The position numbers and the translations under genes are program-made. From Amaurobius ferox (taxonomy: Eukaryota > Arthropoda > Arachnida > Araneae > Amaurobiidae): 64,000 bases of DNA. The stretch is from the NCBI GenBank assembly GCA_951213105.1, contig OX578149.1, positions 1,674,001 to 1,738,000 of the forward strand, in the 5' to 3' direction. Within the stretch, counting starts at the first letter, position 1, and each line of letters begins with the position of its first letter. Of this stretch, positions 1 through 38,700 are shown one piece after another. The notes under the pieces are model-generated. The model did no database searches and had not been told where the DNA came from. It saw nothing but the letters and a program-made list of their open reading frames with translations.

Positions 1-69
1 AAAATAGCTTATAAATATATTACCATGAGTTTTATTTTCTTTACCAGACTAAAATAATGAAATAAGTAA

Positions 70-400
70 TGGATCCACATACACCACTTAAAAGCCTTGC
101 GTAGGGTTCTAAGACTGCATTTCTATATCTCGGACCAGATGCAGATCTTTTGTCAGACACATGCTTCCCAAACCATCCGATCTGAACCACTGTAATAGTC
201 CTATTACCTGATATTAGTGGGACGACTTCCTGGCTCCCTCCTATTTAAATGCACTTAGAATCGGAGGTTAAACTGTACCTCGACTTTAGTGGAAAGAGCA
301 CTGACCCATTGTTCTTGACTCCAACTCTGATGTTCTCTACACCAATTCAGGCAGTCCCTCTTAAGTTGTGAAGTCAATGAAGCACATACCATTGTCTTTC
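70..400 (-). mobile_element. Tc1-like transposase relic
   Basis: Read on the minus strand, this stretch gives a decayed Tc1/mariner transposase core. From about position 375 downwards one frame reads NWCREHQSWSQEQW, the family's block before the first catalytic Asp. It continues through a stop codon into REPGSRPTNIR, and in a shifted frame RYRNAVLEPY, which matches the block after the GGG-MVW region. The place of the first catalytic Asp (normally a DES motif) reads STKVEV, so the active site is lost. Stops and at least one frameshift make it non-functional. Terminal inverted repeats were not found. Confidence 0.6.
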
Positions 401-3400
401 TGACATAAAGCTCTTTCTCATTAAGCCTTCTGTATACTGTTTATCATGATACTGAAGTTTAAATTGTAAACTCTGCTGCCTAGCAGTCAACTTGCTGTCT
501 TGACGATCAGTTACAGATAGATACCAATTTTGAGAAGCAGATATTATAATTATCCAGCCTTATCCAGGCTTTCTATCAACAGTTCTAAAGTCTTGAAATT
601 GTTTCTAGAGGGCAGAAACTCTGTCATGAAACATTCAGCCTTTTTGCCCATCCATGTCTGCACAGCCCCTAAATGGCCGACAGCTCGCTACCTCAAAAAT
701 TCTTCCAAATGACACTTCGAAGCCTTTAAATTCTGTTTTGAGTGGATAAACACCGAAATCAAATCCTGAATGGCAGAAGGTCACTTTCACCATGGAAATG
801 AACCTGAATTGCAGAAGTTCGCAGGGAAACATATTGTGCGCACCACCTTTGGATGACGTAACGTCTATTTGCATAATTAGGTTTGCCTTTTGCTCATTTC
901 CTGGAAAAATAAATCATGCAGTTTGGGCATTTCCATGAAATATCATTATTTTTATGTATGTAAAGATTAATTTTGCCACCAGTGTAGTTCAAATTTATTA
1001 AGTAGCAATATGGATGGAAATAAATGCTTAATATTGTGTGAATTTATAACATATTTTGTTAGAAAATAGCTCAATAATGGATTTGCTTTCTGCAATTTTT
1101 TATTATAAAATTTTACAGACATTGTTAAGTATTCTGTCTCCCCAAGAAATTGTTTCCCTTTTATAATACACCCCATATCGTAAAAATGTTGTTTTCTCAT
1201 TCTAAAGCTGGCTCTTATTTTTATCTCTGTGTGTTACTATACATATTATAATGATGTCCTGTTTCAAACTTGCATCTTCTGTTAAGGATTAAAAGATGTA
1301 TTCAGGCAAATGCAATGCAAAGGTGTGTGATGTCATCGAATAAGGCACTGTTCTAATCAATGGTGCAGGCACAAAGCACCCTATAATTGAATAAACAGAA
1401 ATCATTTGGGGACAAAATTCAATTTTCAATTTATTGCTGTGTTGAAAGTGAAAGTAGCAATACTACATATTTAGTGTATATTATAAATTTTGATGAAGTC
1501 ATTCTATTTGTGAAAGAAGCCATTATTGTACAACACAAGCCAGAATTCGATAATACTACACAATTTAGATTTTGGTATACTGCTGACTGAATGACTCAGG
1601 ATGGATAGGAAAGTTTAATTGACATCCCAAGAAGGATTGATTTTGATGTGTTTAAATTACAGATTCTATGTAACATGAGTCTGAATACTCTTCACTAAAA
1701 TATTGGTTTTCCTTTAAACATTAAAGCACCCTGCTGGGACTTGCAGGGTGCATCAGAGGTAGGGCAGGTTGTGTCCTCTCTAGTAACAATGCTATTTCTC
1801 CCTTACCTATGGACCTTGGTTTTTTGACTGTGTTATAAATGCTGCCAATAGGACCCTTTTCTTGTAAACGATTTGGGAAAATTTATTATCGATAGATGAA
1901 CCATTTCCTCCCATTTGGATGTATTTTGTCACATAAGACTTAGTAAACCATTGCTACAATATCCATCTGTCTCTCTACTTTGATCTATTCGAATGTTCTA
2001 ACGGTTTGCTGATTTCGTCATTCACTTTTTTACAATCCCGTAAGATGATGGATCCAAGAAGATTTGACACATTGAGAAATCAGAATGAACCCATTATGTT
2101 TTTTCAGCAAAGCATCCAATGACACCACTTTATTAATCGAGTAATAATGATCTTGTTTTTTAAGTTGCGATTTTAAATATGGAGATGAGCAAATTTCTCA
2201 GTATTGAATGTCTAGATATAGTACTAAAAACTTTATAAAAATTTATATGCAGACTCATTTGGGGGTGTATGAAGTCGAAACGGGTGTTGCCCTTACAAAT
2301 TTTTGAGTTTGCGCTCTATTTAATATGAAGTTAGCCTCTTATGCAAATTTTACGCATATACATTTTTAGACGATGTTATTTTTTGAGTGGTATCTTTGAA
2401 TTTGATTTACTATGAACAATGTATGATAAATGATTTTTTCCCCACAGTTCCTATTACGGGCCCAAAATACAAAGAAATGAAATATACCATGAAAGACCTA
2501 ATGTGTGCTTTCTAGCTGTTCCAAGTATTGATTTATTTCTAAAATGCATGTACCTTCCCATCGTTGGGCCCAAGATGAACTGGACCAATAACATTCAAAA
2601 TGCAAAAAAATTAAAATATACCATGATGGAATCATTATGGGTCCATTAGTATATGTCTTAAGTTGAGCTTTCGAAATGTTCCAGTTCTCAAATTATTTCC
2701 CAAAAACATATGCATTCCTAGGATGAGCCTGGGATGGGTTGGATCGCGTGAGCTTCAAAATCCAAATCATTGAAAGTATACTGTAAAAGACAATGACATG
2801 CTCGATTCCAATACACTATGAATTGTGTAACTTGATTAGTGAGAACCTCAAAGATTTAAAACACAAGAAATTTATGTAATGAAAAAGCAGTACGAAAGCA
2901 CCTGCAGCTTAGATGGATGTACCTATTAGATAGCTGTGAAAAGAGACATGCCTCATCAATGTATGATACTGAAAGAAAACCGACACCATTCCGAGCAAAA
3001 ATCATTTCATTTATTTGCATGGAAAGCATTTTGTGCCTTTATTTTAAATGATAAAGGTTGTACGTTATTTGGGTAGACACTCTCCCTTTACCACAGGTTG
3101 GTATGTTAAATGGGTTGTCATATTATGCATCATTTTGTCCAATAAAGGCAACTGAGACCATTTTGAAGCTTCTAGAACCAGCCATTCTTGGGGAAATTCC
3201 AGTTTTTAGAAATGTTTAATGAATTATATGGATGGGGCATTCTTTAAAACAACAGCAAGCGTGTCCATTATTTCATTGAAATTTTGCATGAGAAATCAAG
3301 AAAACAGACTTTAAGTGGTAGTCCAAAGATGCATACTTTTGGTAAAATACCTTCTGTGATAGTTTCATTCAAAACTGCTCTGAATATCACAGTCATAAAA

Positions 3401-3918
3401 GATCCTTGATCCATTCTGATAAAAATGACACTGGTCACAAAAAGTGAGACAACCCACTGTTTTTGGCCTCGTTCAGGTTTGATCCTGGACTACGCTGTAA
3501 GGGTAGACCAAACCAAACATGTCCAAACTTATAATTCGGGTAATGATACCTTCACTAGAAACATCCTTCACAGAAATGAAGTGCCCCAGAAAGATCATCT
3601 GGCTCCCCTATTGATACAGGTTTTTTGTGTGATCCGAGAATCGTTCTTTATTTTTTTAATAGTGTGTTTTAGAAGAGAAAGTGCATTACATAAAGTATGA
3701 AAACCTAGCATGTCATTTTTGTCTCATCTATTTATTAACTCCCCACGATTCATTACTACATTCACTTTTGTATTTATTACAGGTGTTTTTCACCCAAACC
3801 TAATGTCATTTTTAGAAATGGGCCTTCTTCAATTATTTTTTGCATGCATCTTTATTGACATGTCATGATTGTTGCTTTCCATTTCTGGGCCGTTTAGAAT
3901 AGTTTTGTTCTCTTTCAG
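401..3918. other. Non-coding stretch, no gene recognised
   Basis: AT-rich sequence with no ORF that looks coding. ORFs at 530-712, 967-1200, 1387-1590 and 3425-3700 are short, unrelated to anything I recognise and lack plausible splice context. It is most likely upstream intron or intergenic DNA of the gene whose last exon begins at 3919. A degenerate internal repeat lies at 2440-2870. Confidence 0.5.
2440..2870. repeat. Degenerate dispersed/tandem repeat
   Basis: Three diverged copies of a unit are visible: a GGGCCCAA-type start, then AAATATACCATGA or a variant about 20-60 bases on, followed by a short spacer. The last part (CTTGATTAGTGAGAACCTCAAAG) recurs in diverged form near 6090-6120 (TGGTTAGTGAGGGCCTCAAAG). 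This suggests an old dispersed repeat family; I cannot name it. Confidence 0.4.
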
Positions 3919-3984
3919 GATGAGGAAGCAATCAAACCAAAGCCGAGGAAGAAAAAGAGATTAACAGGTTTTGATAGTGATTAA
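3919..3984 (+). CDS. Probable C-terminal exon of an unidentified gene
   Basis: A strong acceptor (TTGTTCTCTTTCAG) ends at 3918. The following 66 bases are open and read DEEAIKPKPRKKKRLTGFDSD, then TAA at 3982. The peptide is a basic, nuclear-localisation-like cluster (PKPRKKKR) followed by a short acidic end, as in C-termini of many nuclear or nucleolar proteins. A canonical AATAAA lies 216 bases after the stop. I do not recognise the protein. Its earlier exons were not found and may lie left of the window. An isolated acceptor plus a short open frame can occur by chance; the poly(A) signal and composition argue against that. Confidence 0.45.
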   Translation, partial: DEEAIKPKPRKKKRLTGFDSD

Positions 3985-4199
3985 CAAATTCTGTTTCCAT
4001 TTGAACTTTACAAAGTTTGCGGCTGCAATGAAGCCATGCCAAAAATGCATGACTTTAAGCGAGATCAGTGTACAGAGAGTGAGGGTCATTGTGTACCTTC
4101 ACCATCATCCATCTCATAACTCATCAGAGACCTTATATTGTTACTGTACATATTTGTATATCGATTGCATGAAGCCAAAAATGTGCTCTATTGTTTTTA

Positions 4200-4205
4200 A
4201 ATAAA
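4200..4205 (+). terminator. Poly(A) signal for the 3919 exon
   Basis: Canonical AATAAA at a suitable distance after the TAA at 3982-3984, giving a 3' UTR of about 240 bases. The assignment depends on the exon being real. Confidence 0.4.
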
Positions 4206-4239
4206 CTTTTACAGATTATTTATTAATACAAAATGAAGA

Positions 4240-7009
4240 TGCTGTCTTTCCTTTTTAGATCTAATTATGCAGACCAAACATCTGGATAATGGCCTAATAA
4301 AAGCAATTGGGCACGTCTTAAATTTTACTTCATGCAATGCTGTTGTACAAGCAAATAATTAGAGTACAGGCTGTCCAAAAAGTCAGGGAAATTTCAATAT
4401 GCTCTCAAGAAGTAGTGTTTTTTAGCATTATGTTCTTAGAATTACTATCATCCTATTACAGATGGCTTTAATTTGCATTATTGCATTTTATGGTCTTGCA
4501 ATTTGCAATAACATAAATTTCAGTGTATCACGGTGGAATGCTGGCTAGAATTTGTGATTGAAAATGAGTCAAATTTTATCCGACAAACCTGGAATAGTCA
4601 AGAAAATGTGAAGCTGGATTTGGCCAGATAACTAACATTATTGAGGGTCATCATGCATGAGGGGAAATCATGCAATTTTTTTCCAAAATTAGCTGCTAAC
4701 CCATTTTTAAAAATTCTGAAACTTTTTAATGTGATTCTGTCCATTAAGCTGTTAGAATTCGTATTTTGTTCTTCAAGATCTGGGGCCATTTTGCTTAAAA
4801 ATTTAAAAATTCAAAATGGCCACCACAGCAGAGCTTAAATACAACTTACATTTTTGTCCATAGATGTACCTCGATGGGACAAACTTTTCATTGCACACTA
4901 TCTGTTGATACGTAGCAAACAAAATTCCTTAAATTTTTATAAAGTAGCGTTCAAGTTTCAGAATTGACATAAAGCCATTTTTGATTTCCTTTAACTCTCT
5001 AATTAATAACAATCAACCAATAAAATTTAGGCGCTATATTGTTATTTTCTTTGGGAAAAAGTCAGTTCAAATTTGGCAAGAAATAAAAGAAAGAAGAGAA
5101 GGAAAAGCAGAATTGTGAAAATGAATTAATTGATGAAGGGAAAGTCTTTAATATTAAAGAAATGTGGAGGAATAATTGAGTAAAGGAAATTTAAAAAAAT
5201 AACATAGGAAAAACAATGTCTTCATCCGAATTTGATATTGATAAAAAGCCCTTTTTGAAGATATGAGTGAGGTATATTAGCACACAGTAAACTAACACTG
5301 ACAATTGAATGAAATTCAATGGAAAAGTCTACTTAAACAGTGCAAACCCATGAAACAAATATTACATATAACTGCTTTGACTCATGGTTATATAGTGTAC
5401 AAGGCTAGAGGAAGGCTTGTAGATGGTGTTAGTGCGGATGAACAAGTGCTCAACTCGCTATAGGTGCATTAAACATGATCCTATTAACACTTTTAATTTT
5501 CAGTCAATAAATAGTTCATTGGGTTTAAACAAATAGGGTATAAATGGGGGATTTTCTCAAAATGGTTCATTCAAAATGCTGTGGTTAGGACTCTCCCTAA
5601 AACTACATTTCAAATTAAATCCCACCATCTATATTTAAATATCATTAAAAAATGTTTATCATGTTGTGTTATTTTATGATTTACTTTGAAATTTAGTATA
5701 AAAGACTAATTAGGTGTATCCAGGTAACAAGTTTCAGTAATATACATTTTATTACATAGAAACATTCCATGACCCCAAGGTAACCGGGGGCCATTCCGAC
5801 CAACTTTAACACAATATTGGGAAATTAAAAAATCACTATTTTTGACCACTATAAACCTAGCTTAATACTGTGTTAATATAATTCATCATTAAAAAGAACA
5901 TTGTAGCTGGTTCTAAGCAGGTTGCAATTAATTCTTTACCACGAAAGCCAAAGATATACCCCATTTCAATTTTCTAGCTGCTTTGTTTCTCCAGTGATTC
6001 TCCAAAAATATGTACATTTCAATTACTCAAAGGCTCAAAATCCAAAAAAATTCAAGCAACATGCCAAATTTTAGGCTTCTGAACTGAGTGGAACCTGGTT
6101 AGTGAGGGCCTCAAAGGATGTTAAAGTATATATTCCTTTTGAAGTTAAATAAAAGTGTTTAAAAATAAAGAATCGTACACATTATCGATAAGGATAAAAT
6201 GAATTCTCCACATAGATCCGTATCCGAGCCTTTACTATGAAAGACATCTAGAGAATATCCCCAATTTCTCTCTCTCTCTTTCTTTTTCCTATGCTTTTGA
6301 CTGAAATTTCCCTTTTCTGTAGGGAATTTTCAACGATTTGCTGGTCATTTTTCTTGCAACATCAAGTCTTGGGTAAGTTCAGCAGTTCTTAGTAATATTG
6401 TTTTATCTTATGATGTTTCTTAAATAGGTTTTATGGGATGCTATTTTACCATTTAAATACTACTTGTTTTTCAATCATTGGGTCTATTCAATGAACTGTT
6501 TGAGCAGGTGGAGCTATAAACTTTCAATCGACACTTTATAAGTTTTGCGTCAAGAGTACTTTGAATCACTTAAGGTGAATTTATTTAAAATTTTTAGATG
6601 AATAGGCACTGTCATGAGCTTATGGACATTGAGTAGTAAAGCTTTGTATGGGAGGCTTGTTACGTATCTTGATCCAGAAAGATATTAAGATTATTATTCA
6701 ATGTTAAATGAAAAGAGAATTAATATTTATAATAGTGCTGTAACTTTCATTGTTAGAACTTTTCTATCTTGATGTTGGCATTACTTATTAGTTTATATAT
6801 TCTGCCAAAAAAGGGTTTTTATAATTCTTGCTTGTATTAACAGTTTACCCACTTGAGTCAAGATATGTTTTGTGTACCAGTAAAGATTATTTAACCCTTG
6901 TGTGAAGTGGCCCTATTATGGGTAAGTTAGCAGCAGTACTCAGCAGGTTATGGGGTACATGTTTCCGACTAAGCCAAATTTTTGTTAAAACAGTTTATTT
7001 GTATCTATA
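4240..7009. other. Non-coding stretch, repeat fragments only
   Basis: AT-rich DNA without a convincing gene. At 4370 the sequence ACAGGCTGTCCAAAAAGTCA resembles a mariner-type terminal inverted repeat, but no partner end or transposase was found. 5990-6140 is a diverged copy of the repeat at 2440-2870. A CT-rich run lies near 6270-6300. ORFs 4598-4789 and 4641-4838 overlap on opposite strands and look like chance. Confidence 0.4.
6323..6372 (+). CDS. Possible isolated 50-bp exon
   Basis: The sequence is bounded by a good acceptor (TTCCCTTTTCTGTAG, AG at 6321-6322) and a perfect donor (GTAAGT at 6373). All three frames are open, so the reading frame cannot be chosen; one reads FQRFAGHFSCNIKSW. 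No neighbouring exon could be joined to it. It may equally be a pseudo-exon. Confidence 0.18.
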
Positions 7010-9770
7010 GAAATGGAAGTTGCGAAACTGCATATGAAGCCGTTAAGCGACAAAAGAGATTGCATGTTTTGGAAATATCTTATCAGGTTTGCTTTGGATT
7101 TTCATACGAATGCATTCAATGTTATTGAAGAAAATGTTGTGAAGTTTTCACTAGTAGAAGGGGCAACTGATACACTTCAGATAAAAAAAAGGTAAAGTTC
7201 TTGAAGTTTATCAAAAAGCTAGCAACACTGCAATGATGATTCTGACTCATTCCATGATAGAAGAAACTTTGGAAAAAAAAAAATTATGTGCTTTAACACA
7301 CCATGAGAAGTGTCCGGCTGTCCAAATGGTTGCTCGAGTCCTTAGGATGAGTCAGACGGCCTGGGTCTTCAACAACATGAAAAGTGTGGCTTGAACTGTG
7401 TGGTTTATTTGAAGCAACTTCTGAAAACCCGGTGAACAATATTTGTTTACAATTCTTTAAAATTAATTGGATGTTAGAGGATAACATATTAGCTTATCTT
7501 TCTAAACTAAAGAATTTGAAATGAGCAGAATGCCTTGAAAAGAAAAAAAGAATCAAAACTCTCAGAGATGCTGTTTATTTGTAAAATCCTCGACACATTG
7601 TGTAGAATAACCTCAACCACGATAATAACTATCGAGACTGTAACCAAGCTGCGAGACAAGGACACGCTCGAAACGATGTACAACGAGTAGCGTGGTGTTT
7701 GTGTGGGTCCCAATAAAATGTGTTTGTCCATATAAAATACCTCCTCATTTTTACACCGAATACAATACATTGCCACAAGAATATCATTCAAGTCAAGTTG
7801 GTTGCATTTAAATGAAAACATGCAAACTGCGGATAAGCTAACTACTCAGCTGCGTACATATGAGAGAGAGTTACATGAAGAGAGAAGGAACGTCTTGATC
7901 AAAAAGCCCTGTTTCCACAAAAGTAGTACCTATAAAGTAGCAGAACAGGTTCAAAAGTAAAAGAAACATTAAAACCTGCAACTATTGTCATCTAAAAGGA
8001 CAGATTAAGACCAACCCTTGTGGTGACCTTTAATGGTTTACGCCACTGCGAGGAGGGTGGTAAAGAGGAATAGTCACTATCCAGTAAGACGAACAACCAG
8101 GAGAGCAAGAGTCGGCAGAAACATTCACCAAGCAGGGTGAAGGCAACCCATCAAGTCAAGACCCCAGTCACCGACGGGTTTAGGAACAGGTCGTAAAGGG
8201 TCTGCTCCTCTTCGCCACCTAGAAATGTCTGCTTCAAGGACCAAACCATGTTAGCAGCCGGCCTATCCACAGATTTATTTACCCCACAGGTAAAAGGAGG
8301 ATCAGTGCTATGGGGAAGTCAAGTTCTGTATACCACCATCTTAAGACGAGCCCCCCTGTGAGGAGATAATCTAAAAGGACATTGGGTTACAACCTTCTCA
8401 AAATGGATTACAGATGATAGGCTACCTAAATCAAAGAAACCTCTGGAAACATATTGCCAGAGATGGCGACTGCTTTATTGATTTTGAATATTTTTATTCA
8501 TGTCATGGGGTAACTTGAGTCAACAGAACTGTTTTGCCAGCTATAGGGAAAGGTGCATTAAAGATTGTAACTCTTGTGTCAAGGGTTGCTGACAAATTAA
8601 GGATCTTAAAAATGTCTAAGTTCCAGGAATAAGCAAAAATCTATTTTCAGTCCTTGCAACTCAAGACAATTGGAACCGACTCCACAAAAATGCTCTTTAA
8701 AAATTGATAAGGAAGTAGTTCTGTATGGAGCACCAGCACATAATATTGATGAAGGTCTCTACAAAGCTGGAATGAAAGTATTGTCTCCTGAACAACCAGT
8801 AGTGGTGAATATGGCAAGAACAAAGGACGCTTTTCTAGAACTATGCCATGAATGTTGGGGTTATCACGGCAAGCATCATGTAAAGTCTCCTCTTGTTAGG
8901 TATTAAAACTACCTTAGAAGTGTCGAAAATCCAGACCACTCGACTTACCTTGAGGCATAAGCAGCAGTTTAAGTGGTCGGCGAACTACTTTAGAAGTGTG
9001 TAAAGCTTGCATTTATGGCAAAGCTTATCACCCCAAGTTTAGTACTAGAAAAAAAAGCTACCAGGCCATGGGAGCTTATTTCAACAGATGTGATGAACGG
9101 ATGATTTCAACAGATGTCATGAGTCTCGCAGGAAATTTCATTACTTTTTGATTTTCAAGGACTGCTTTACAAAGTTTTGCTATGTTTGCTTTCTTTGAAA
9201 AAAATCAGAAGTTAGTCAAGCAGTTGTAGAATTCTTAGAAATAGGGGACACTGTGTCAAAGAACTTCTTAGTGATAATGGAGGCGAGTTTGACAATCAGG
9301 AAATCAAAGTGATTCTAAAAAAGAACGAAATAACACAAACACTTACAGAAGTAATAAATTAAAGTTAGACCAGCATTGTACTAAAACGTACGATGCTGGT
9401 GATGAAATAGAAAACTTGAATGATAACAGTATTAAAAGGACAACACAGTTGTTCTAGGAAAATATTTGAAAGATTTAGTAGGAGCAACTGCAAACCAGTA
9501 TATACTCCATCACAAAAGAAGATTTTAAAGAGAAGAAAAAGGCCAATACTCAGGATTGTAAGGGATAATTTCCATATCATACAACCGTAGGAGCACTAAA
9601 GTATAAGATGGTTGGCACAAGACATGATCTTGCTTATAGTATTGGCATGTTATCACAAAAATTAAAAAATCTTACAGAAAAAGATTGGATCCAAGTTAAA
9701 TGTGTGTTTCAACACATAGTATGTACAGTGGACAATGGAAACATGTCAATTTAGTAAATACTTTATAATA
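7010..9770 (+). mobile_element. Old Ty1/copia relic (gag-PR-IN-RT pieces)
   Basis: Heavily mutated copia polyprotein. The order of recognisable pieces is right: gag-like MEVAKLHMKPLSDKRDCMFW near 7013; a zinc-knuckle remnant CNYCHLKGQIKTNPC near 7985 with the His changed to Gln; end of protease (KNLFSVLATQD in pieces, 8640-8670); GAG-pre-integrase TKDAFLELCHECWGYHGKHH (8815-8880); integrase core with KDCFTKFCYVCFL and LLSDNGGEFDNQEI (9160-9310); and late RT, TTVGALKYKMVGTRHDLAYS (9580-9640). Stops and frameshifts occur between blocks. It is a different family from the intact element at 10497. LTRs were not found. A SINE interrupts its 3' part. Confidence 0.75.
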
Positions 9771-9797
9771 TGTAGCAAAGACTTCCAAGTGTTTGGT

Positions 9798-10078
9798 TGT
9801 TGAAACCCAGACCGTCCGACCTACCAGAAAGGTGTAAGGTAACTGTTTGGACGGTCGGGAAGTGCCACTCAATTTAGACCGGAACCCAGTGGGGGAGGCA
9901 TCCACAGGGACCGTACCCTCCTTCCCCTACCACCAACCTCTCGGAAGGACTTTCGGACCCACATGTTTAACGTGATCATACTCCGCATGAACACGGCGGC
10001 AGTTTTGGCAGTGGCTGGAATCGAACCCGGGCCTACCGAGTGCAACTCCAGCGCGCTAACCAATGGGCTACCGCGCCC
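9798..10078 (-). mobile_element. tRNA-derived SINE with 14-bp target duplication
   Basis: Read on the minus strand it starts GGGCGCGGTAGCCCATTGG, a tRNA-like head with A box (TAGCCCATTGG) and B box (GGTTCGATTCC), followed by a ~200-bp unrelated body and a short CAA-rich 3' end (CAACAA). It is flanked by a perfect 14-bp direct repeat TCCAAGTGTTTGGT at 9784-9797 and 10079-10092, the mark of LINE-mediated insertion. It sits inside the old copia relic. A 5'-truncated relative is at 30987-31114 and an older relative at 30950-31275. Confidence 0.8.
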
Positions 10079-10092
10079 TCCAAGTGTTTGGT

Positions 10093-10409
10093 AAAAAAGT
10101 TCTTTAATATTAACACTTTCAGTAATGTACATTTAAATTACAAAAAATCTAGAGTGCTTTTGGATACTACAACGTCCTTCATCAGTGGCAATGTAAATTG
10201 TTTAAGATGCGACGAGCATGTGCTCTTATACACAACCCCCAACCATGAAACAAAATTTGCATATGGATAGTCAAAAATCCGATACCAATAAAAATATAGT
10301 TAAATTACACAATATACATATAATTGTAGATCACAAAAATTCAAGGCAATCAATAAACATGTCGTTAAAAGCAAAGGAAACATGTACTAGATATCCAGAA
10401 AATTATACA
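10093..10409. other. Decayed tail of old copia relic or unassigned DNA
   Basis: Lies between the SINE and the flanking repeat of the young copia element. It could hold the eroded RNase H end of the old copia element, but no RNase H motif is legible. ORFs 10040-10270 and 10218-10412 begin in or near the SINE and are not supported. Confidence 0.3.
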
Positions 10410-10496
10410 TGAGTTCAACACACAGAGAGTCAAGAATGAGACGTCAGGTGAAACTGAGGGTTTGAACAAGATCAAAATTACAAGTAGAGTCGTGAT
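10410..10496. repeat. 87-bp flanking direct repeat, left copy
   Basis: Identical by reading to 17486-17572, starting TGAGTTCAACACACAG and ending GAGTCGTGAT. The left LTR begins directly after it. The three bases before it (ACA, 10407-10409) equal the last three bases of the LTR that precedes the right copy, so the shared stretch is 90 bp including this microhomology. Copia elements normally make about 5-bp duplications. Confidence 0.9.
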
Positions 10497-11284
10497 TGTT
10501 GGAAATAATCAATACATCGCGATTCACGTTCCTGTGAACGGGCGTTTATGCAAATTTAATATGAACGACTCTTCCCGTTCACCGGCGTGAACCGTGACGT
10601 TTTTCAACATGAGGTTTCATGCAAATCAGTTCTCAATGCGTACGCATCTGATTTGCATATCCGGGGGCGTTTCCGGAACTGTCCATTCTCGGATATATAG
10701 GGCAGAGGTTTCTTGAAGCAAATGAGAAGGTCGGAGTCGATCGAGATCAGACGTCTGAAGAAGTCAGACGAGATAGACACTGATGGTCTGATGCAGGCAG
10801 ACAGAAATGTTTTTTTTGACAGAAGCACTGCGGAATATCGTTTGACGACGGTGAATAGTCGAAACGGATGCAGATGTGGTCAGTTTGGACCAGCATGTAT
10901 TGAACGTTAAATTTACTTACAAACGTTCGGAAGCCGCTTTAAATATTTTCCTGATGTTTTATCCTTTGGTTTCCCTTTGCCAAGTGATGGTGGCTGAAAT
11001 ACACGCAAGTGATAGAGGTAGTATAGTAACTTACTACCAAATGCTTCAAGGAATCCCTGTCTAGTCATTTACAACTAAAAATCTTTTGTACATAGTATAT
11101 TTTTGATGTTTTACGGCATGGAAAATTACCAGGTACGTGTAATATGCCGAGTTGTGTTTTTCACCAAATAAAGTGAACGAAGTTTTTCTTTAAAGCTGGA
11201 CTTGTGTACTTTCATAACCCAGCCAACACTTATTGACTCTGACAGTGCGTGCTTTGCTATCTTCAAATTTTAAATTTTCCAACA
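10497..11284 (+). repeat. 5' LTR of copia element
   Basis: 788 bp, TGTTGG...CCAACA. A TATATA box at 10694-10699 marks the likely promoter, with transcription probably starting a little downstream. AATAAA at 11167-11172 is the likely poly(A) signal; in the 3' LTR it is at 17368-17373. ORFs 10604-10828, 10713-10910 and 10876-11064 inside it recur unchanged in the 3' LTR and are not genes. Confidence 0.95.
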
Positions 11285-11289
11285 GAAAC

Positions 11290-11302
11290 GGTTACGGGCC
11301 AG
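11290..11302 (+). promoter_or_regulatory. Primer-binding site, half-tRNA-iMet type
   Basis: Five bases after the LTR the sequence reads GGTTACGGGCCAG. It matches the complement of the anticodon-arm region of initiator tRNA-Met (GGTTATGGGCCCAG) with one substitution and one missing C. Drosophila copia is known to prime from a cleaved half of this tRNA, using this internal region rather than the tRNA 3' end. Confidence 0.5.
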
Positions 11303-11478
11303 TTCAACGCCCAATAGAGTCATAAGTGCAAGTATCTTTAAAGAAATCGTTCCAGTGTTCAGATGGGGGCCGCACATGGCACCATTTTGAAGTTCGTGTG
11401 AACAACGAAACGCAACAGTGTAAACGTAAACAGTGTACAAGAACTTTTGCTTCTGCTTCTTCAAAACTACGAGTGGCC

Positions 11479-14400
11479 ATGGAGGCAAGTAGAACGGAGT
11501 TGCTGACGCGGGACAACTACGTCACCTGGCGTACCGACATCTCATTCGTCCTCAAGGGAGAAGGATGTTTCGGACACGTAGATGGAAGTGCTAAGCCTAT
11601 CGAGGAAGATGCAAGTCGCCGCGACTATGATGATTTTTATCGCCGGAAAGACCGAGCATTAGCCATCATTTATCAAAGTTTATCCTCGGAATACAAGGAG
11701 TTGATAAACGTCACCGACGAACCTAGTCAAGTATGGAATACCTTGAAAGAACATTTTCAAGCGCCTTCCAGAGCCAACCTGGTTAGATTACTAGATGAGT
11801 TCTTCGACGTTCGGCCGGAGCCAGACGAGCCTGTTGATATTTTTTGCTCAAGACTGCGGAAGGCCGTGACGAGGCTTAAAGACGCGAAACACCCCATTGA
11901 AGACCTGTATGTAGCATTCCAGTCGATTCGGTACCTTCCGGAAGAATTCCGAGGTATCGTTCAAATTATATATCGATGGAATGACTCGGACTTCAAGCTC
12001 AGCAAAATACAAGCAGAGCTAGCAGCGGAGGAGAGCCGGCTGAGGCAGCAAGCAAGTGACTTTTCCAAAACTGTGAGTTCAAATTCTGCATATTTTACTT
12101 CTAAGAAATTTGTAAATAGAGTAAATGTGTCTAAACTTAAATTTCCAAATGTATCTCATAATGTGTCTAATGTAAATACTTCTAGTCATAATGTAAATAT
12201 TTCTAAAAGTAAAATTAAGTGTTTTAAGTGTAACAAACTAGGTCATACTAAATCTAATTGCAGTAGAAATAATGGATCTAGTATTGTGGAATTTCTTGGG
12301 TCTCCACAGATTGAGGCTAATACTGTAATCGATCCTAGCGATAGACTCAGCTGGGTAGTAGACACTGCTGCTACGCGACATTTCTGTAATAACATTAAGT
12401 TATTTTCAAAATTTAATGAGTGCAAAGGTACTTCAATGTCGCTAGCAGTAGGGGATGTCGAAAGTCCAGTTGAGGCTATCGGGACGGTGGAAATGTATGT
12501 CCAATTTAAGGATAAGCAAAGTATTATCAAATTGGAAAATGTTATGTATTCTCCTAAACTTAGGAGAAATTTATTAGCTGCATCTGTTCTTGAGGAACAA
12601 AATTTTAGTTTTAATGGAGCTAATGGGGTTCTATGGTTTTTTACACCTAAAGGGGAGAAATTCTTTTATGCAAAAAGAAAGGATGGGTTGTATTTTTTAA
12701 AACCTAAGTATAGTACCCAGGAACAACATAACGTAGAAAACCGTCAATCTAAAGATAGGGATCAACATGGAGACAAGAAACACAAAAAGGATAAGAAATC
12801 CAAGGATAGGGATCCTAGTGATTCCAGAAAAATAGACAACGTAAAAATAGCACCTAATCTTAAAGAAACTAAATTTAAATCTGACAAAACAAAAACTAAG
12901 CAGAATAGAAATGTGGATAGTTCAATATCTAAGCCTAGCAGTTCAGTAACTGAACTTAATAGTACAAACTGTCTTTGGCATAAACGATATTGCCACATAA
13001 ACGCTGAATATCTCCTCCAAACCAGCAAAGTTTCTGCCGTAAACGGACTTCCTAGGCTTAAATACAAAAAGTTAAATTGTAAATCGTGTAAATTGGCTAA
13101 GTCTAGGAGAGTATCATATAAACCCACCGGTAGGATAAGGTCCACTAAACCATTGCAATTGTTACACATGGATGTGTGTGGTCCCTTACCCACAGCCTCA
13201 TATGGTGGGAACAAGTATGTCTTAACTATAACAGATGATTATAGTAGAAAAGTTTTTGTTTGCCTCATGAAACAGAAGTCAGAAGTATTTTCACATTTTA
13301 AAGAGTTTCAGGCCAGAGAAGAAAGGCAGTTAGGTACTAAAATTCTATGTATCCGGACGGATAATGGGATGGAATTCTGCCATGATAAGTTCAAAAATTA
13401 CCTGAAGGATATCGGTATTAAGGCTGAGAGGACTAACACATATACCCCACAGCAAAATGGAGTATCAGAGCGATTCAACTTAACCGCATTTGACTGTGTT
13501 AGAGCCATGTTGAACGACAGTAAATTACATGACAGATTCTGGGCGGAAGCAATATTGTGTTTTGCATACACTAAAAATCGAATATGTCACAAATTTAAGA
13601 CAAAAACTCCACATGAACTCTACAGTGGTAGAAAACCTTCAGTCAAACATCTTAGAACCTTTGGTTGTAGAGCATATGTAGGCAAACCCAGTCAGCTCAG
13701 AAAGAAGTTAGACATGAAAGCTACAGAAGGGGTGATGGTAGGCTATGCTACTAAAACTAAGGGCTATAGGATATTTTTGTCAGGGGAGAAACGAACAATT
13801 GAGACCTGCAATGTGAGGTTTGATGAGGGTGATGTAGTGGAAGGCATCCTGGACCCAATTTGTCCCAGAAATATCTCCTCAGGGATATCAAGAGATAACC
13901 TTTCAGAATACTCCGACGGGGAATATCCGAGAGAGCAGTCTGATGGGGGGGCAGGAGAGAGTGAAGACACTGGTGACGATCCGTCTGAATCCAGTGAGGA
14001 AACGGACTCTCCTGCTGACTCCAGTATGACTCCTTGCTCGGATATTGCTTGGCAGCGAAAGACGGTTCCAAGACCCGATGGGAGTAGAACCGATGTGTAT
14101 TATTACGCTCAAGGAGATAATAAAAGGCTGAGGTCGCACAATGATGTTAAGAAATATTGTGATAAAAGGAATATACAATTTGATCAGCAACTGTTTAATT
14201 TTCGGGAAAATAAAGGTCTTAAAAGGGTCAGAGGCAGACCAGAAGCAAGCAATATTGAAATAAATATACCAAAAGGGTACAACGCTGCTATTAAATCTTC
14301 CCAGTCCGAAAAATGGTGTAATGCTATGGATGAAGAAATGGCCGTAATGCAAGAGAGGGGTGTCTGGGAACTAGTTCCTGCATCCACCTCACAAAAGCAT

Positions 14401-15822
14401 ATAGGCAGTAGATGGGTCTACACCATTAAGAAAGACGAGAATGGGAAAATCAAGAGGTTTAAAGCTCGTTTGGTAGCCCAGGGGTATGGTCAGAAAAAGG
14501 GAGAATCATACGATGAAGTTTTTAGCCCTGTTGTTAACTTCAACTTAATTAGAGCATTCTTCTCAATTTTCGTATGCATGCTTGGCTGGATGCATTTCCA
14601 ATTAGATATCAAATCTGCCTATCTCTATGCTAAATTGAGTCAAAAGGTATATATGAAACAGCCTCAAGGTTATGTCAATCAGGAACAGCCTGATTATGTT
14701 TGTTTGTTGAAGAAAGCCATTTACGGTCTTCATCAAAGTGGAAGAGAATGGTTTAATGAACTTGACACCAAATTAAAAGAATTAAATTTTTTAAAACTTC
14801 AATGGTGTAATTGTGCATATATTTACAATAGCAAAGTTCTTATGCTAGTCTATGTGGATGACATAATTCTCTTCTCAAAGTATCAAAGGGACATAGACCA
14901 CATTGTTTCATTACTTAGCATAGAATTTGATATCAAGGTATTAGGAAAAATTAGAAAACTTTTAGGCGTGGAATTTAAAGAGTGTGACAATAAATTTTTT
15001 ATACATCAAAGTCAGTATATAGATAAAGTATGTCAAATGTTTCAACAGTATAAATATCCAGTTACTTCACTTCCCATTTCTAAAGGGAATATTCTAAGTA
15101 AAATAGATTGTCCAAAGACAAGTGAAGAAATAAAGCAAATGCAAAGTTTTCCTTACAGGAGCTTAATTGGGTGTTTGGCTTTTATATCTAGTCGGACTAG
15201 ACCTGATATTTGTTACGCCATCAATATATTATCTCAATTTCAAGAAAACCGTGGAATTAAGCATTGGGATGCATTGTTAAGACTTTTAGGATATGTTGAA
15301 AAGACTAAAAACTATATGTTGAATTTATCTAACATTCAGGAGTTAAAATTAAATTGTTACTCAGATTCTGACTTTGCTGCAAACAGAGATGACCGTGTTT
15401 CACTTGGAGGCATGATACTCTTTATTGACAATGTACCTATTTCTTGGCGTACCTTTAAACATAAGTGTGTCAGCTTATCAACCATGGAAGCTGAATACGT
15501 ATCACTAACTGAAGCCGCTAAGGAAATGGTATGGGTACAAAACATAATAGAAGAATGTCATTTACTTGGGTTAAACTTTAATAAAAGTAACAGTGTTATT
15601 TTTAGCGACAACCAAGCAGCCATTAATTTTTCTAACTCTCCAATTGAAAACAACAGAACTAAGCATATAGATGTTAGATATCATTTCCTAAGAAATTTAA
15701 TAGTCAATGAATCTTTTAATGTTAAATTTGTAAATAGTAAAGATAACTTAGCAGATCACTTTACTAAACCAATGACTAAGGAAATAATACTTAAATTTTG
15801 TAATAAAATTTTTAAAAACTAA
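11479..15822 (+). CDS. Copia gag-pol polyprotein with MBD-like domain
   Basis: The frame is open from 11326 (1498 codons); numbering here counts from that Met. I choose codon 52 (ATG at 11479) as start because its context is GCCATGG and it begins MEASRTELLTRDNYVTW, the usual copia gag start. Blocks: gag to ~270; zinc knuckle C299-C302-H307-C312; protease D346-T-A; an unusual Lys-rich linker ~473-530; integrase HHCC (H552, H557, C585, C588) and D616, D679, E715 with DD35E spacing; GRKP at 768-771; acidic Ser-rich linker ~853-900; MBD-like domain ~907-960; RT with D1094 and YVDD 1176-1179; RNase H with D1347 or D1349, E1388, D1428 and D1449. The product would be cleaved into capsid, protease, integrase and reverse transcriptase. 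No stop or frameshift is seen. Confidence 0.93.
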   Translation: MEASRTELLTRDNYVTWRTDISFVLKGEGCFGHVDGSAKPIEEDASRRDYDDFYRRKDRALAIIYQSLSSEYKELINVTDEPSQVWNTLKEHFQAPSRANLVRLLDEFFDVRPEPDEPVDIFCSRLRKAVTRLKDAKHPIEDLYVAFQSIRYLPEEFRGIVQIIYRWNDSDFKLSKIQAELAAEESRLRQQASDFSKTVSSNSAYFTSKKFVNRVNVSKLKFPNVSHNVSNVNTSSHNVNISKSKIKCFKCNKLGHTKSNCSRNNGSSIVEFLGSPQIEANTVIDPSDRLSWVVDTAATRHFCNNIKLFSKFNECKGTSMSLAVGDVESPVEAIGTVEMYVQFKDKQSIIKLENVMYSPKLRRNLLAASVLEEQNFSFNGANGVLWFFTPKGEKFFYAKRKDGLYFLKPKYSTQEQHNVENRQSKDRDQHGDKKHKKDKKSKDRDPSDSRKIDNVKIAPNLKETKFKSDKTKTKQNRNVDSSISKPSSSVTELNSTNCLWHKRYCHINAEYLLQTSKVSAVNGLPRLKYKKLNCKSCKLAKSRRVSYKPTGRIRSTKPLQLLHMDVCGPLPTASYGGNKYVLTITDDYSRKVFVCLMKQKSEVFSHFKEFQAREERQLGTKILCIRTDNGMEFCHDKFKNYLKDIGIKAERTNTYTPQQNGVSERFNLTAFDCVRAMLNDSKLHDRFWAEAILCFAYTKNRICHKFKTKTPHELYSGRKPSVKHLRTFGCRAYVGKPSQLRKKLDMKATEGVMVGYATKTKGYRIFLSGEKRTIETCNVRFDEGDVVEGILDPICPRNISSGISRDNLSEYSDGEYPREQSDGGAGESEDTGDDPSESSEETDSPADSSMTPCSDIAWQRKTVPRPDGSRTDVYYYAQGDNKRLRSHNDVKKYCDKRNIQFDQQLFNFRENKGLKRVRGRPEASNIEINIPKGYNAAIKSSQSEKWCNAMDEEMAVMQERGVWELVPASTSQKHIGSRWVYTIKKDENGKIKRFKARLVAQGYGQKKGESYDEVFSPVVNFNLIRAFFSIFVCMLGWMHFQLDIKSAYLYAKLSQKVYMKQPQGYVNQEQPDYVCLLKKAIYGLHQSGREWFNELDTKLKELNFLKLQWCNCAYIYNSKVLMLVYVDDIILFSKYQRDIDHIVSLLSIEFDIKVLGKIRKLLGVEFKECDNKFFIHQSQYIDKVCQMFQQYKYPVTSLPISKGNILSKIDCPKTSEEIKQMQSFPYRSLIGCLAFISSRTRPDICYAINILSQFQENRGIKHWDALLRLLGYVEKTKNYMLNLSNIQELKLNCYSDSDFAANRDDRVSLGGMILFIDNVPISWRTFKHKCVSLSTMEAEYVSLTEAAKEMVWVQNIIEECHLLGLNFNKSNSVIFSDNQAAINFSNSPIENNRTKHIDVRYHFLRNLIVNESFNVKFVNSKDNLADHFTKPMTKEIILKFCNKIFKN
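14044..14205 (+). other. MBD-like domain between integrase and RT
   Basis: Residues 907-960 of the polyprotein contain W-Q-R-K, then GSRTDVYYYA, KRLRSHNDVKKY and QQLFNF. This is the order and spacing of a methyl-CpG-binding domain. The positions that contact methyl-cytosine in MeCP2/MBD1-type domains are kept: an Arg before the GS loop, the Asp and Tyr of DVYY, and the Arg-Ser of RLRS. It sits where the integrase C-terminal targeting region of other elements lies. Known for the family: MBDs bind methylated CpG. Inferred: a role in choosing integration sites. Only a profile search can settle the assignment. Confidence 0.7.
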
Positions 15823-16697: not shown

Positions 16698-17485
16698 TGT
16701 TGGAAATAATCAATACATCGCGATTCACGTTCCTGTGAACGGGCGTTTATGCAAATTTAATATGAACGACTCTTCCCGTTCACCGGCGTGAACCGTGACG
16801 TTTTTCAACATGAGGTTTCATGCAAATCAGTTCTCAATGCGTACGCATCTGATTTGCATATCCGGGGGCGTTTCCGGAACTGTCCATTCTCGGATATATA
16901 GGGCAGAGGTTTCTTGAAGCAAATGAGAAGGTCGGAGTCGATCGAGATCAGACGTCTGAAGAAGTCAGACGAGATAGACACTGATGGTCTGATGCAGGCA
17001 GACAGAAATGTTTTTTTTGACAGAAGCACTGCGGAATATCGTTTGACGACGGTGAATAGTCGAAACGGATGCAGATGTGGTCAGTTTGGACCAGCATGTA
17101 TTGAACGTTAAATTTACTTACAAACGTTCGGAAGCCGCTTTAAATATTTTCCTGATGTTTTATCCTTTGGTTTCCCTTTGCCAAGTGATGGTGGCTGAAA
17201 TACACGCAAGTGATAGAGGTAGTATAGTAACTTACTACCAAATGCTTCAAGGAATCCCTGTCTAGTCATTTACAACTAAAAATCTTTTGTACATAGTATA
17301 TTTTTGATGTTTTACGGCATGGAAAATTACCAGGTACGTGTAATATGCCGAGTTGTGTTTTTCACCAAATAAAGTGAACGAAGTTTTTCTTTAAAGCTGG
17401 ACTTGTGTACTTTCATAACCCAGCCAACACTTATTGACTCTGACAGTGCGTGCTTTGCTATCTTCAAATTTTAAATTTTCCAACA
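16698..17485 (+). repeat. 3' LTR of copia element
   Basis: 788 bp, same ends and apparently the same sequence as 10497-11284. TATATA at 16895-16900; AATAAA at 17368-17373. Confidence 0.95.
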
Positions 17486-17572
17486 TGAGTTCAACACACA
17501 GAGAGTCAAGAATGAGACGTCAGGTGAAACTGAGGGTTTGAACAAGATCAAAATTACAAGTAGAGTCGTGAT
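17486..17572. repeat. 87-bp flanking direct repeat, right copy
   Basis: Second copy of 10410-10496, directly after the 3' LTR. Beyond it the sequence (AAATATAAATG) differs from that following the left copy, which is the LTR, so this is the original right flank. Confidence 0.9.
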
Positions 17573-27295: not shown

Positions 27296-28736
27296 CACTA
27301 ACTTCCAAAAGTTAAGCACACAATGCAAATTTTTATTTTTCAAAAGCGTATTTGAATTTGAGTAGCTGAAAATCGCTGCGGATGTAGATGGCAGTATGTA
27401 AATATCGTACGTTACAGCCAATCATGATTGACTGTCCGGATATATGCTAATTAGGCAGTCGTTGAAGATGCCAGCATTCTAAAGGGTTTTAGAAGGTTCA
27501 TTTAAATGCTGATTTAAGTGTTTATAACTGTTGTAGGATTATTTTTGATGATATTCATGTTTCTATGGCTAAAAGAAGATGAATGACAGATAGTGAGCGA
27601 TGGCTTGCTGTCAGATGCATTGAAACAGGACAGTCAATCAAAGATGTCGCTATTTTCTTTGGTGTTGATCATTCAGTAATTTCTCGATTATGGAAGCAAT
27701 TCTAAGCAAGTCAAACAGTTGTCCGGAGACTTGTGCCCAGTCGTCCAATGGTTACCACCCCCTCTGATGATCAGTATATTGCTATAGTAGCCAAGCGGAA
27801 TCGACGAGCGACCTTCACAACTGTTACATTCATGGTTGCAGCGGGGAACTGTACACCTGAGTACCACGTTTTTGTGTTCCACTAACCGTCCAAGCCTGAG
27901 GAGCAAGATTAAAGTGATGTCTTCAACATGTCAATTGGACTGTCTCAGATTAGTGCAACGTCCTGTTCACGGACGAGTCCAGATTTGCCCTGGAATCTGA
28001 TGGTAAGCATGTAAGGGTCTGGAGAGAATGAGGCACACGCAATCAGGCCAAGAACATAACACATTCAGAGGTGGCAGCGTCATGGTGTGGAGTAGAATTT
28101 CAATGGGATATCGCACAGAGCTGCACATCTTTAAAGACAATTCTGTGATGACTGCACGGTATCGGAATGAAGTCCTAGACCCCATTGTGAGACTCTACGC
28201 TGCAGCAGTTGGTCCTGATTTCCTGTCCCATCGACCTAACATCATTGACGAATACCTGGAAAGTGAGGGCATTTCTTATATGGAGTTACCGGTGTATTCC
28301 CCCGGCCATAATTCCATTCAAAACCTTTGGGATGCTCCGAGCAGGCTGTCTCTGCACATTTACCTCCTCCAGTCAGTCTTAGAGAGTTGGAAACTGCCCT
28401 GTTGGAAGAATGGCCATTGCTTACATCTGTGATGGTTGGTCACCTCATTGAAAGCATGGAAAATCATTGTAAAGTTTGTGTGAAGGTCCGGGGTGGTCAC
28501 ATGCCATATTAATGTAGTTTTGTTTGTTTGCCTTTAAACATCATTTTGTTAATGACCCAAATGTGACGTCATCATATGACTTATGAAAAGTAAATATTTT
28601 TTTCATGTTTGTACGTAATTCTTGTTTTCTTTAATGCATAAACACATTTGCTACATTCATGTACGATTTTGAGTTAATCAAAACTATTTCATTTTTGTTG
28701 ATTTTACCGTCCGTGCTTAACTTTTGGAAGCCAGGG
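27296..28736 (+). mobile_element. Tc1-like element, complete ends, broken transposase
   Basis: Terminal inverted repeats are legible: left CACTAACTTCCAAAAGTTAAGCAC from 27296, right GTGCTTAACTTTTGGAAG to 28736, about 20 of 24 positions pairing. Both sides are flanked by TA (27294-27295 and 28737-28738), the Tc1 target duplication. Inside, a plus-strand transposase reads TDSERWLAVRCIETGQSIKD and HSVISRLWKQF (helix-turn-helix), FTDESRF (first Asp), GGSVMVW, IIDEYLESEGI, YSPGHNSIQNLWD and a C-terminal VRGGHMPY. Stops (TGA near 27580, TAA near 27701) and several frameshifts disable it. The third catalytic residue, Glu in the family motif NPIENLWD, reads Gln. Confidence 0.85.
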
Positions 28737-29192
28737 TATTTTTTGTGTTTAGGATACTGATTCGAAACAGGACCATTTTATCAGTAAGCATTTTCGTACT
28801 GCTTTTAATTCATCTTCTCTCTAAACAAGCATCTTGTTCAGTTCGATGACAGTGCCCGTACAGCCCTGAAGACCCAAACTGTTAATGATAAGCAAGTGCT
28901 TCTGTTTCAGTTGGAATATTGACGCCCTGCAACTATAGTGCATACATTGAAGATCCTGCAACTATAGTACATACATTGAGATTCATTGAACTGAACCAAA
29001 CAAGTTTACTTCAAAGTTGGAGGTCACTTCAAAATTTCTCAAACTGCTCATTAGTGTGCAATTGAAAAAAAAAAGGGATAAAAAATTATACACTTTGGCT
29101 ACCTGTCATAACTTGAAATTTATATAAAAAAAATATTTATTTTAAAATGCATATTTTCTTATTAGTTGCAAATTCTCGAGTTTTACAATATT
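28737..29192. other. Intergenic spacer
   Basis: Between the Tc1 element and the 3' end of the SAXO-like gene. No feature seen apart from an imperfect repeat CCTGCAACTATAGT(A/G)CATACATTGA at 28928-28979. Confidence 0.4.
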
Positions 29193-35724: not shown

Positions 35725-35798
35725 CTGTTTGCATTGGAGTTTGGTTCCACGTTCGGGTGACTTTTTAGACTAGATTATTATATTGATATTAGACTTAC

Positions 35799-38700
35799 TT
35801 TGCTCTGTTGGCTTGTCGGTTCGTCTTATAATCTCGAGTTGCAGAGTAATCGTTAGACGTTGTTTCAAATTCCATTTTCCCTTCTTGCTTCAAGTTCTCA
35901 CGACGCCTCTTTGAAGAAGAACGCCTGCCTTCCAACTTCTTGTATTCGGATCGGGATGTGGATGTGCCATCGAATGGGACGTGCTCTATTTTTATGTTGT
36001 CATGAGGTTTATAGCGCCTTTTGCCTTTGTTTAATTCTTGGATAATGGGGTTCTTCGTGCCTTCATCCTGCGTTCCATCCCCTTTTCTGGAAGCGTCTTT
36101 CCCGCCGTCTGATTCAACTTGTGGAACGACATCATTCTCAGATAACTTCCAAGATTCATACTCTCCTGCCATCGTTTCGTGAGATGACTCGGAAGTCGGT
36201 TTCCTCTCTAGGGGTATTTCTGCTCGGGGGTTGTACTTATTGCCATTTCTTTCTCCCACCTTTAAATTTTCGTTTGGCAAAGAAGTATCTTCAGCTGATT
36301 TTGGGGGGCTTTCATTTCGACCCATCGCGTCCGGTTCGCATAACGTTTCGTTTCGCTTATTCTGAGCAGAAATATTGCTTTTCATTTCTTGTACCTTCGA
36401 GCTTGCTTTTCCGCTCTCTCTCACTGTCTTTGCCTTTTCATGTATCCTGATGTCTGCCTGAGCCACTTTGGATCTTGCGAGCTCGTCGTGAGCGCTAGTT
36501 TCCTCGAAGCGCATACCCTTGTCATTGACTTTCCACGATCCGGGTTCGTTTTCTTTTGAATTGGCGTTTTTTGCACCCGCGGCAGTCTTTCTTCGGTCTG
36601 TCTTATCGCGTTGCGTTCGAATTCCTGCCGCTTGCAATTTTTTCTTCGGAACTGCAATCTGCTTTTCCGCTTTAATCCACTCTCTATATTCACGATGTGT
36701 CGTCGTTTCATTTGCAAATTTTCCCGATTCTAAGTATATGTTATTTTGGTGACGAATCGGTTTCACCCTATCCAATTGATCTGGCTGATGGAACATCTCT
36801 TGGTTTGTAGTTGTCGCAGTGAAATCGCCTTCGATTCGGGTCGTGGTTTTGGGGCGTATTTGCTGTACTCGTTCTAAACTCTTTTCTCTGAATTCGGAAT
36901 GGTTTGTCGTTTCGAAGTTCATTTCTCCTTCCTGTTTCAACGAAGATGCCAACTGAAAAGCTTTGGGCCTTTCTGTTTTCCACTGCTGGTAGGCATCGGC
37001 TGTGTTCGTTTCTTGGGCACCTTCTTCCATTCGGATGTGAGTCGATGGACGAATTGTGTGCACAGTTTCCACGGTTGGTGCTTGAAACATGGATTGATTA
37101 GTTGTTGTTCCGGAAAATTTTCCTTCTGACGTTTTGGTCAATGTTTTAGGCCTTATCTTCGAAACTTTTTCAGCAGTTTTTCCTTCAAACTCAAGTTGAT
37201 TTGAAGTTACAAAATCGTAGTTACCTTCTTGGGTAATATTAGGTTTTGGCTTTATAAGTTCTTGTTTACTTCCAGTCTTATATCCATATTCTTTTGATGT
37301 TGTTGATTCGCCATTAAATTCACCACTTTGCATTCTTATATTATCTCTTGGTCTGATGTCATGAACTTTTTCCATTGTCTCTCCCTGGTACATTACCTGG
37401 TTAGTTGTTGTTCCATCAAAATCACCTGTTATTGGTGAGGATGTATGAGGTCTAATTTGTTCAGTTCTTGCAATGGTTTTCTCGCCAAACTCTGTCTGAT
37501 GAGAGGTCGTAAAATCCATTTCTCCTTCTTGCGTTAACGTCGAAAATGGCTTAATAGCTTCAGGTCTAGCAAGTTCCCAATGCTGAAATTCTGTTGCAGC
37601 TGTAGTTTGGTCTTCGAATCTACCACTCTCTAGGTGAATATTTGTGGACGGTCTTTTCCCTCTCACTCGTTCGACGGGGTTGTTCAGGAACATTGTCTGA
37701 TTCACAGTCGTCCCATCAAAATCTCCAGTTAATTTAATAGCTGTCGTGGGTCTTATTTGAATTGGTTTTTCAGTTGCTCTTCCTTCATACTGTAAGCTGT
37801 TGGTTGTCGTAAAGTCCATGCTTCCTTCTTGTCGGATACTACTGTGGGGTTTGGTTGGAGTTGATTTCTCATATCCCCAAGTTTGAAATTCCCTGTTGTT
37901 TGTCGTTTCATGATTAAAATTTCCTCTTTCTAGTGTGATGTCTGTGTGCGGTCTTGCAGCTTTCTGTGTCTCTCCTGTAATACCCTGATGCATAGTTCGA
38001 TTAGTTGTAGTTCCATCAAATTCCCCTGAAATTTTTGGATTTGTTTTGGGCCTTATTTGGGAAGTTCTCTCAATGGCTTTTGTGGCATATTGAACCTGAT
38101 TCGTTGTTGTGAAATCGATATCCCCTTCTTGCTGTAAATTGTTTCGTGGGGTCACTGCCTGTGGTTTAGTCTGCTGCCATTGTTGGAACTCTGAGTGATT
38201 TGTTGTATCATTTGCAAATGCTCCTTTTTCCAACTCTAAATTACCTTTCGGTCTTATTATTTGTGTTCCATTGAATTGACCCGGATTTTTTGATGATGAG
38301 TGAGGAGGAAATTGAAACGCTTGTTTTTCTTCAAATTGCAATTGGTTCATAGTTGTAAAATCCATCGAGCCTTCTTGTCTTAAATTAGATATGGGTCTGA
38401 TAGGCTTGGGTCTGTCTACATGATATTCTTTAAACTGTGATCTATTTGTTGTTTCGGAGTTGAAAACGCCCGAGCTCGTTCTAAGATTCGGTTCTGGGAC
38501 AATTTTCTTAACTCTTTCAATCGGAAAAGAACTGTGCATAACTTGGTTTGTTGTGGTCATGTCATGATCACCCGATATCCTGTTTGTGGTGGTGGGTCGA
38601 ATGGGAAATACTTTCTCAGGGTGTTTCTCTTCGAATTCCGTCCTATTTGTCGTGATAAAATCCATTGAACCCTCTTGTGTGAGATTTGACCTGTGAACTA

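Follow-up and report, generated by a model that had tools for sequence, protein, structure and literature searches.

What would a Copia retrotransposon do with a domain built to read methylated DNA, and is the domain that appears in one such element genuine? The question arises from a 64,000-nucleotide stretch of the genome of the spider Amaurobius ferox (contig OX578149.1, positions 1,674,001 to 1,738,000; hereafter the window, whose own coordinates we use throughout), in which the polyprotein of a Copia element carries, at 14044-14205, a segment that the original prediction took for a methyl-CpG-binding domain (MBD). These positions correspond to codons 907-960 of a single open reading frame (ORF) at 11326-15822. 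Judged by sequence profile and predicted structure, the segment is a true MBD, beyond chance resemblance, and the element, judged by its design, is a further member of the already published CopiaMBD kind. We regard it as probable that its MBD sits on the pre-integration complex and reads methyl-CpG, directing new copies to methylated DNA.

The identity of the domain is supported by several lines of evidence. All of the blocks named in the original prediction are found in the translation, namely W-Q-R-K from residue 909 (codon 14050), GSRTDVYYYA, KRLRSHNDVKKY and QQLFNF. The Pfam profile PF01429 matches at 14050-14208 with 24.8 bits against a gathering cut-off of 21 (E 1.7e-5), and the predicted fold is that of an MBD, with a core predicted local distance difference test (pLDDT) score of 95-97 and structural matches to MBD4, MeCP2, MBD2 and SETDB2. 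In the order of domains, the MBD comes directly after the SH3-like domain at the C-terminus of the integrase (PF25597, 13624-13830; E 8.8e-27, block pLDDT 74-94) and ahead of the reverse transcriptase (RT). The acidic, Ser-rich linker noted in front of it is present as 58 residues at 13873-14046 (14 S, 9 D, 8 E, 2 R and 0 K), recognized by composition and predicted to be disordered (block pLDDT 42-52 over most of its length). No chromodomain is among the Pfam matches at E 0.1.

The residues that would touch methyl-CpG, with positions assigned by alignment to MBD3 and by MeCP2 numbering, are also in place. The window MBD keeps W909, R916 (R111), D923 (D121), Y925 (Y123), R936 (R133) and S937 (S134), and the claim that the contact residues are retained holds at the level of sequence for R916, D923, Y925 and R936, together with W909. 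The two arginines, the Asp and the Tyr correspond to residues that contact methyl-CpG in MeCP2 and MBD2. MBD3 has Phe where the window has Tyr (the alignment reads DVF), and a Phe at this position weakens the preference for methylated DNA.

To what extent is the domain shared by related elements? A search with the integrase-to-RNase H piece gave 3742 matches, the best 120 of which, with two proteins found earlier, make up a set of 122. A hidden Markov model (HMM) of the MBD, built from three elements and able to miss divergent MBDs, matches 54 of the 122 at E <1e-3 (27 of a variant that we call the RLKS type and 27 others), and the domain recurs between SH3-like domain and RT in 49 of the 58 relatives that have both in order. 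All carriers with an organism name, among the matches listed, are spiders: Trichonephila clavipes, Araneus ventricosus and Stegodyphus mimosarum. Of the nine relatives scored without an MBD at this place, precomputed Pfam annotates a divergent copy in P0034, P0045 retains a truncated domain, and in P0114 the domain lies in another part of the protein; the HMM test finds none in P0022, P0043, P0047, P0052 (a plant protein), P0086 (from the pseudoscorpion Cordylochernes) and P0123. By eye, P0123 holds a stretch resembling a decayed MBD. P0114 (T. clavipes, 1177 aa) is a gene model in which a Copia-type MBD at residues 128-186 is joined to Copia parts and to a bromodomain (PF00439); it reflects either a fusion of host and transposon sequence or a faulty annotation.

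Mean identity to the window is 51% for the MBD, 58% for the integrase core, 59% for the SH3-like domain, 54% for RT and 55% for RNase H, taken over 24 of the 27 non-RLKS carriers (22 of the 24 for RT and RNase H). Two partial relatives had suggested an MBD that evolves more slowly than the enzymes; over the 24 it is slightly less conserved. The linker gives zero BLAST alignments at E 1 across the same 24 relatives. In an RT tree of 32 relatives, made by a quick method with no bootstrap and with P0034 labelled a carrier by hand, the window falls in a clade of 25 rows (Shimodaira-Hasegawa approximate likelihood ratio test, 96), 24 of them, the window included, labelled as having an MBD; the exception, P0022, is placed among RLKS near-copies. 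The row nearest to the window is P0007, at 64% RT identity. Both P0022 and P0047 stand beside near-identical MBD carriers. Searches of viral contigs with the single MBD segment or the three-sequence alignment as query return zero relatives, and the P0002 MBD, used as query in a protein search, recovered itself alone.

A survey of the contact positions over 57 domain matches to the three-element HMM, many of them near-copies from one genome and not independent events, divides the family. The RLKS type accounts for 28 of the 57 matches, in 26 proteins, each from T. clavipes or A. ventricosus by name. Here D121 reads N in 24 matches and G in 3, the remaining one having a gap, and R133 is K in 28 of 28; the Trp, Y123 and the F..F core are unchanged where covered, and the R111 column is uncertain, the loop being shorter (R-K). 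The other 29 matches have R at R111 in 25, D at D121 in 26, Y at Y123 in 28 and R at R133 in 25, and include P0108, a truncated RLKS-type member. In this araneoid sub-lineage (P0006, P0021, P0023, P0036, P0037 and similar proteins), where the changes at D121 (N or G) and R133 (K) leave the residues of the fold in place, the MBD may have become a reader independent of methylation.

The surrounding element is well preserved. Its long terminal repeats (LTRs), at 10497-11284 (TGTTGG...CCAACA) and 16698-17485 (TG...CA ends), are both 788 bp long with 0/788 mismatches; this identity and the open frame point to an apparently complete, intact Copia LTR retrotransposon that was inserted recently, on the + strand like all features of the element given here. 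Directly 3' of the 5' LTR, 11285-11310 appears to resemble the primer site of Drosophila copia, which uses an initiator-tRNA-Met half. The Gag-Pol polyprotein of 1498 aa is read from a GTG (first in-frame ATG at 11479), and Pfam orders its domains as Gag, zinc knuckle, Pol_BBD, GAG-pre-integrase, integrase core, SH3-like, MBD and RVT_2. Gag (PF14223) lies at 11545-12051 (E 1.8e-27, residues 74-242 of the searched piece), followed by a CCHC zinc knuckle at 12220-12261, found as a motif and by Pfam at 20.7 bits, marginally below the cut-off of 20.8. The protease active-site motif VDTAA is at 12358-12372, and the integrase HHCC, first Asp, DNG and catalytic Glu motifs span 12979-13470 (rve E 1.4e-14). 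RT and RNase H occupy 14302-15498 (RVT_2, PF07727, E 5e-54), with YVDD at 14851-14862 and STMEAEY at 15478-15498. The Copia order of Gag, protease, integrase, RT and RNase H is present in one ORF, with protease and RNase H recognized by short motif alone.

The original prediction also held that this arrangement was not a well-described feature of Copia elements, which fails: it has been in print since 2019, in a paper whose title reports a functional MBD captured by an arthropod retrotransposon family (de Mendoza, Pflueger, Lister 2019, Genome Res 29:1277-1286). The window element shares with CopiaMBD the basic design, a Copia element encoding a captured MBD, and has spider relatives, including the S. 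mimosarum protein P0020. In the CopiaMBD elements, the captured MBD reportedly binds methylated CpG, and insertions are said to favour methylated regions, namely repeats in a centipede and gene bodies in a spider. To our knowledge, neither the altered contact residues of the araneoid sub-lineage nor the flanking duplication of 87 bp described below formed part of that study. Chromoviral Gypsy elements reportedly carry a chromodomain at the integrase C-terminus (Gao et al. 2008, Genome Res). They share with the window element a chromatin reader joined to this end of the integrase, and differ in superfamily, gene order and the reader itself, the window element having its integrase before an RT of the RVT_2 type. 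Retrotransposons have also taken up cytosine methyltransferases, in LINE and DIRS elements of Symbiodinium (de Mendoza et al. 2018, PMC5890265) and, according to PMC12344493, in streptophyte and dinoflagellate elements of the Copia and DIRS types. In both situations a retrotransposon has acquired a DNA-methylation gene, a writer there and a reader in the window element.

Does the insertion site itself look methylated? We profiled CpG content in 1-kb bins with the element and one copy of the 87-bp duplication removed (left side, window 1-10496 and 17573 to ~29 kb). Twenty-two consecutive bins from the left end past the insertion have a CpG observed/expected (o/e) ratio of <=0.66, with TpG/CpA of 1.09-1.41, and CpG o/e averages 0.46 over the first 21 bins vs 0.96 over the next 35, a split that was chosen after the profile was viewed and that compares bins that are not independent. 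The shift near 29000 is sharp (~0.46 for 1-~29000, ~0.96 for ~29000-64000), and its pattern makes a methylation-domain boundary likely. CpG depletion of this sort is typical of germline-methylated DNA in animals with patchy methylation, and the element therefore lies within a block that is likely methylated. Among 20 ORFs of >=50 codons in the left, CpG-depleted part, none matches Pfam above the curated cut-off as a host exon would. The LTR has a CpG o/e of 1.18 (38 CpGs per 788 bp).

The insertion left an unusual footprint. Copia insertions usually leave a target-site duplication of ~5 bp, a trait of the insertion rather than of the element. No 5-bp duplication is found at the LTR ends here; in its place, an 87-bp direct duplication abuts both LTRs, at 10410-10496 and 17486-17572, with 0/87 mismatches. 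It may have arisen when a break with a long stagger was repaired around the cDNA, or when strand transfer spanned adjacent turns of a nucleosome, or it may be an assembly error; one literature search on long duplications gave nothing relevant among the papers listed. It is a long shot that an MBD-tethered integrase working on nucleosome-wrapped methylated DNA can join the cDNA ends about one superhelical turn (87 bp) apart, in which case target-site duplications of great length would be a hallmark of the family.

How might the domain act? In the element, a flexible acidic linker separates the integrase C-terminal module from the folded MBD. In the account that we favour, the MBD would be the part of the pre-integration complex that reads DNA. 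The two arginines of the domain would recognize symmetric methyl-CpG and keep the integrase at such target sites, and new copies would land in methylated DNA; whether this means gene bodies or methylated repeats would depend on the host. For the window MBD, we infer methyl-CpG binding, tethering and target bias. Several observations weigh against this account. Depending on where the polyprotein is cleaved, the mature MBD might be attached to RT instead of the integrase, and the araneoid sister sub-lineage is still multi-copy with its contact residues altered. To the limits on the CpG split given above are added that the depleted block, though in keeping with such targeting, is a single insertion site, that low values recur in two bins farther to the right (CpG o/e 0.56 and 0.58), and that TpG/CpA values overlap between the left and right sides. 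On the domain itself, Foldseek E-values are poor (MBD rows at least 0.28 in one search and at least 0.73 in another), solved MBD/TAM chains match weakly in sequence (E 0.06-0.2), and mitochondrial single-stranded DNA-binding protein chains score equally well with a three-sequence profile. Pfam coverage is low as well, with PF01429 found at E <=0.01 in 16 of 36 aligned members (best E 3.2e-11), which include the window piece and a few non-carriers put in deliberately, and precomputed in 8 of the best 120 relatives listed; many members are recognized by the purpose-built HMM alone.

Such weak single-sequence matches are what a chance resemblance in a region of low constraint would give; we consider this vanishingly improbable and refuted by the Pfam score above cut-off, the same placement in 49 of 58 relatives, a conservation like that of the enzymes, and a confident MBD fold. 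The segment has likewise withstood the refutations set out in the original prediction, with a profile score above threshold, a fold like that of MBDs and recurrence in sister elements. A true MBD could also serve as a shield or decoy that binds the element's own methylated DNA or competes with repressive MBD proteins of the host, and so spares the element from silencing. The retained contact residues would suit this role too, in that an MBD recognizes methylated DNA at any location, and the CpG-rich LTR would make the element's promoter a dense target; a decoy would need no particular place, whereas the position behind the integrase SH3-like domain favours a role in integration, and we think the shield unlikely. 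We hold it to be improbable that the polyprotein is cut within the acidic linker, leaving the MBD as an N-terminal extension of RT and a general nucleic-acid binder during cDNA synthesis. The long disordered stretch ahead of the domain would accommodate such a cut, and the araneoid sub-lineage, in which two contact residues changed under a preserved fold, suggests that reading of methyl-CpG may be dispensable; general binding, however, would not require the contact residues that most other elements conserve. The reading of methyl-CpG by an integrase-borne MBD remains our preferred explanation.

The rest of the window holds a few further features. An uninterrupted ORF of 1491 aa lies on the - strand at 35795-40270, its middle third matching SAXO1-2 (axonemal microtubule) at E 1e-13, and a strong AT skew (-0.345) runs across 36-40 kb. 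Immediately upstream of the element, 8197-9751 contains fragments that by eye resemble an older, decayed Copia, three of which, compared with Pfam, gave no match, and 28028-28432 may be the remnant of a Tc1/mariner-like transposase (DDE_3, E 0.008, below the cut-off).

What this locus adds to the published family is an extra, well-preserved member and an insertion footprint of an odd 87 bp, along with a natural comparison in the altered araneoid sub-lineage. An apparently complete, recent copy and a wide set of relatives with contact residues intact or altered provide the material for testing methyl-guided integration.
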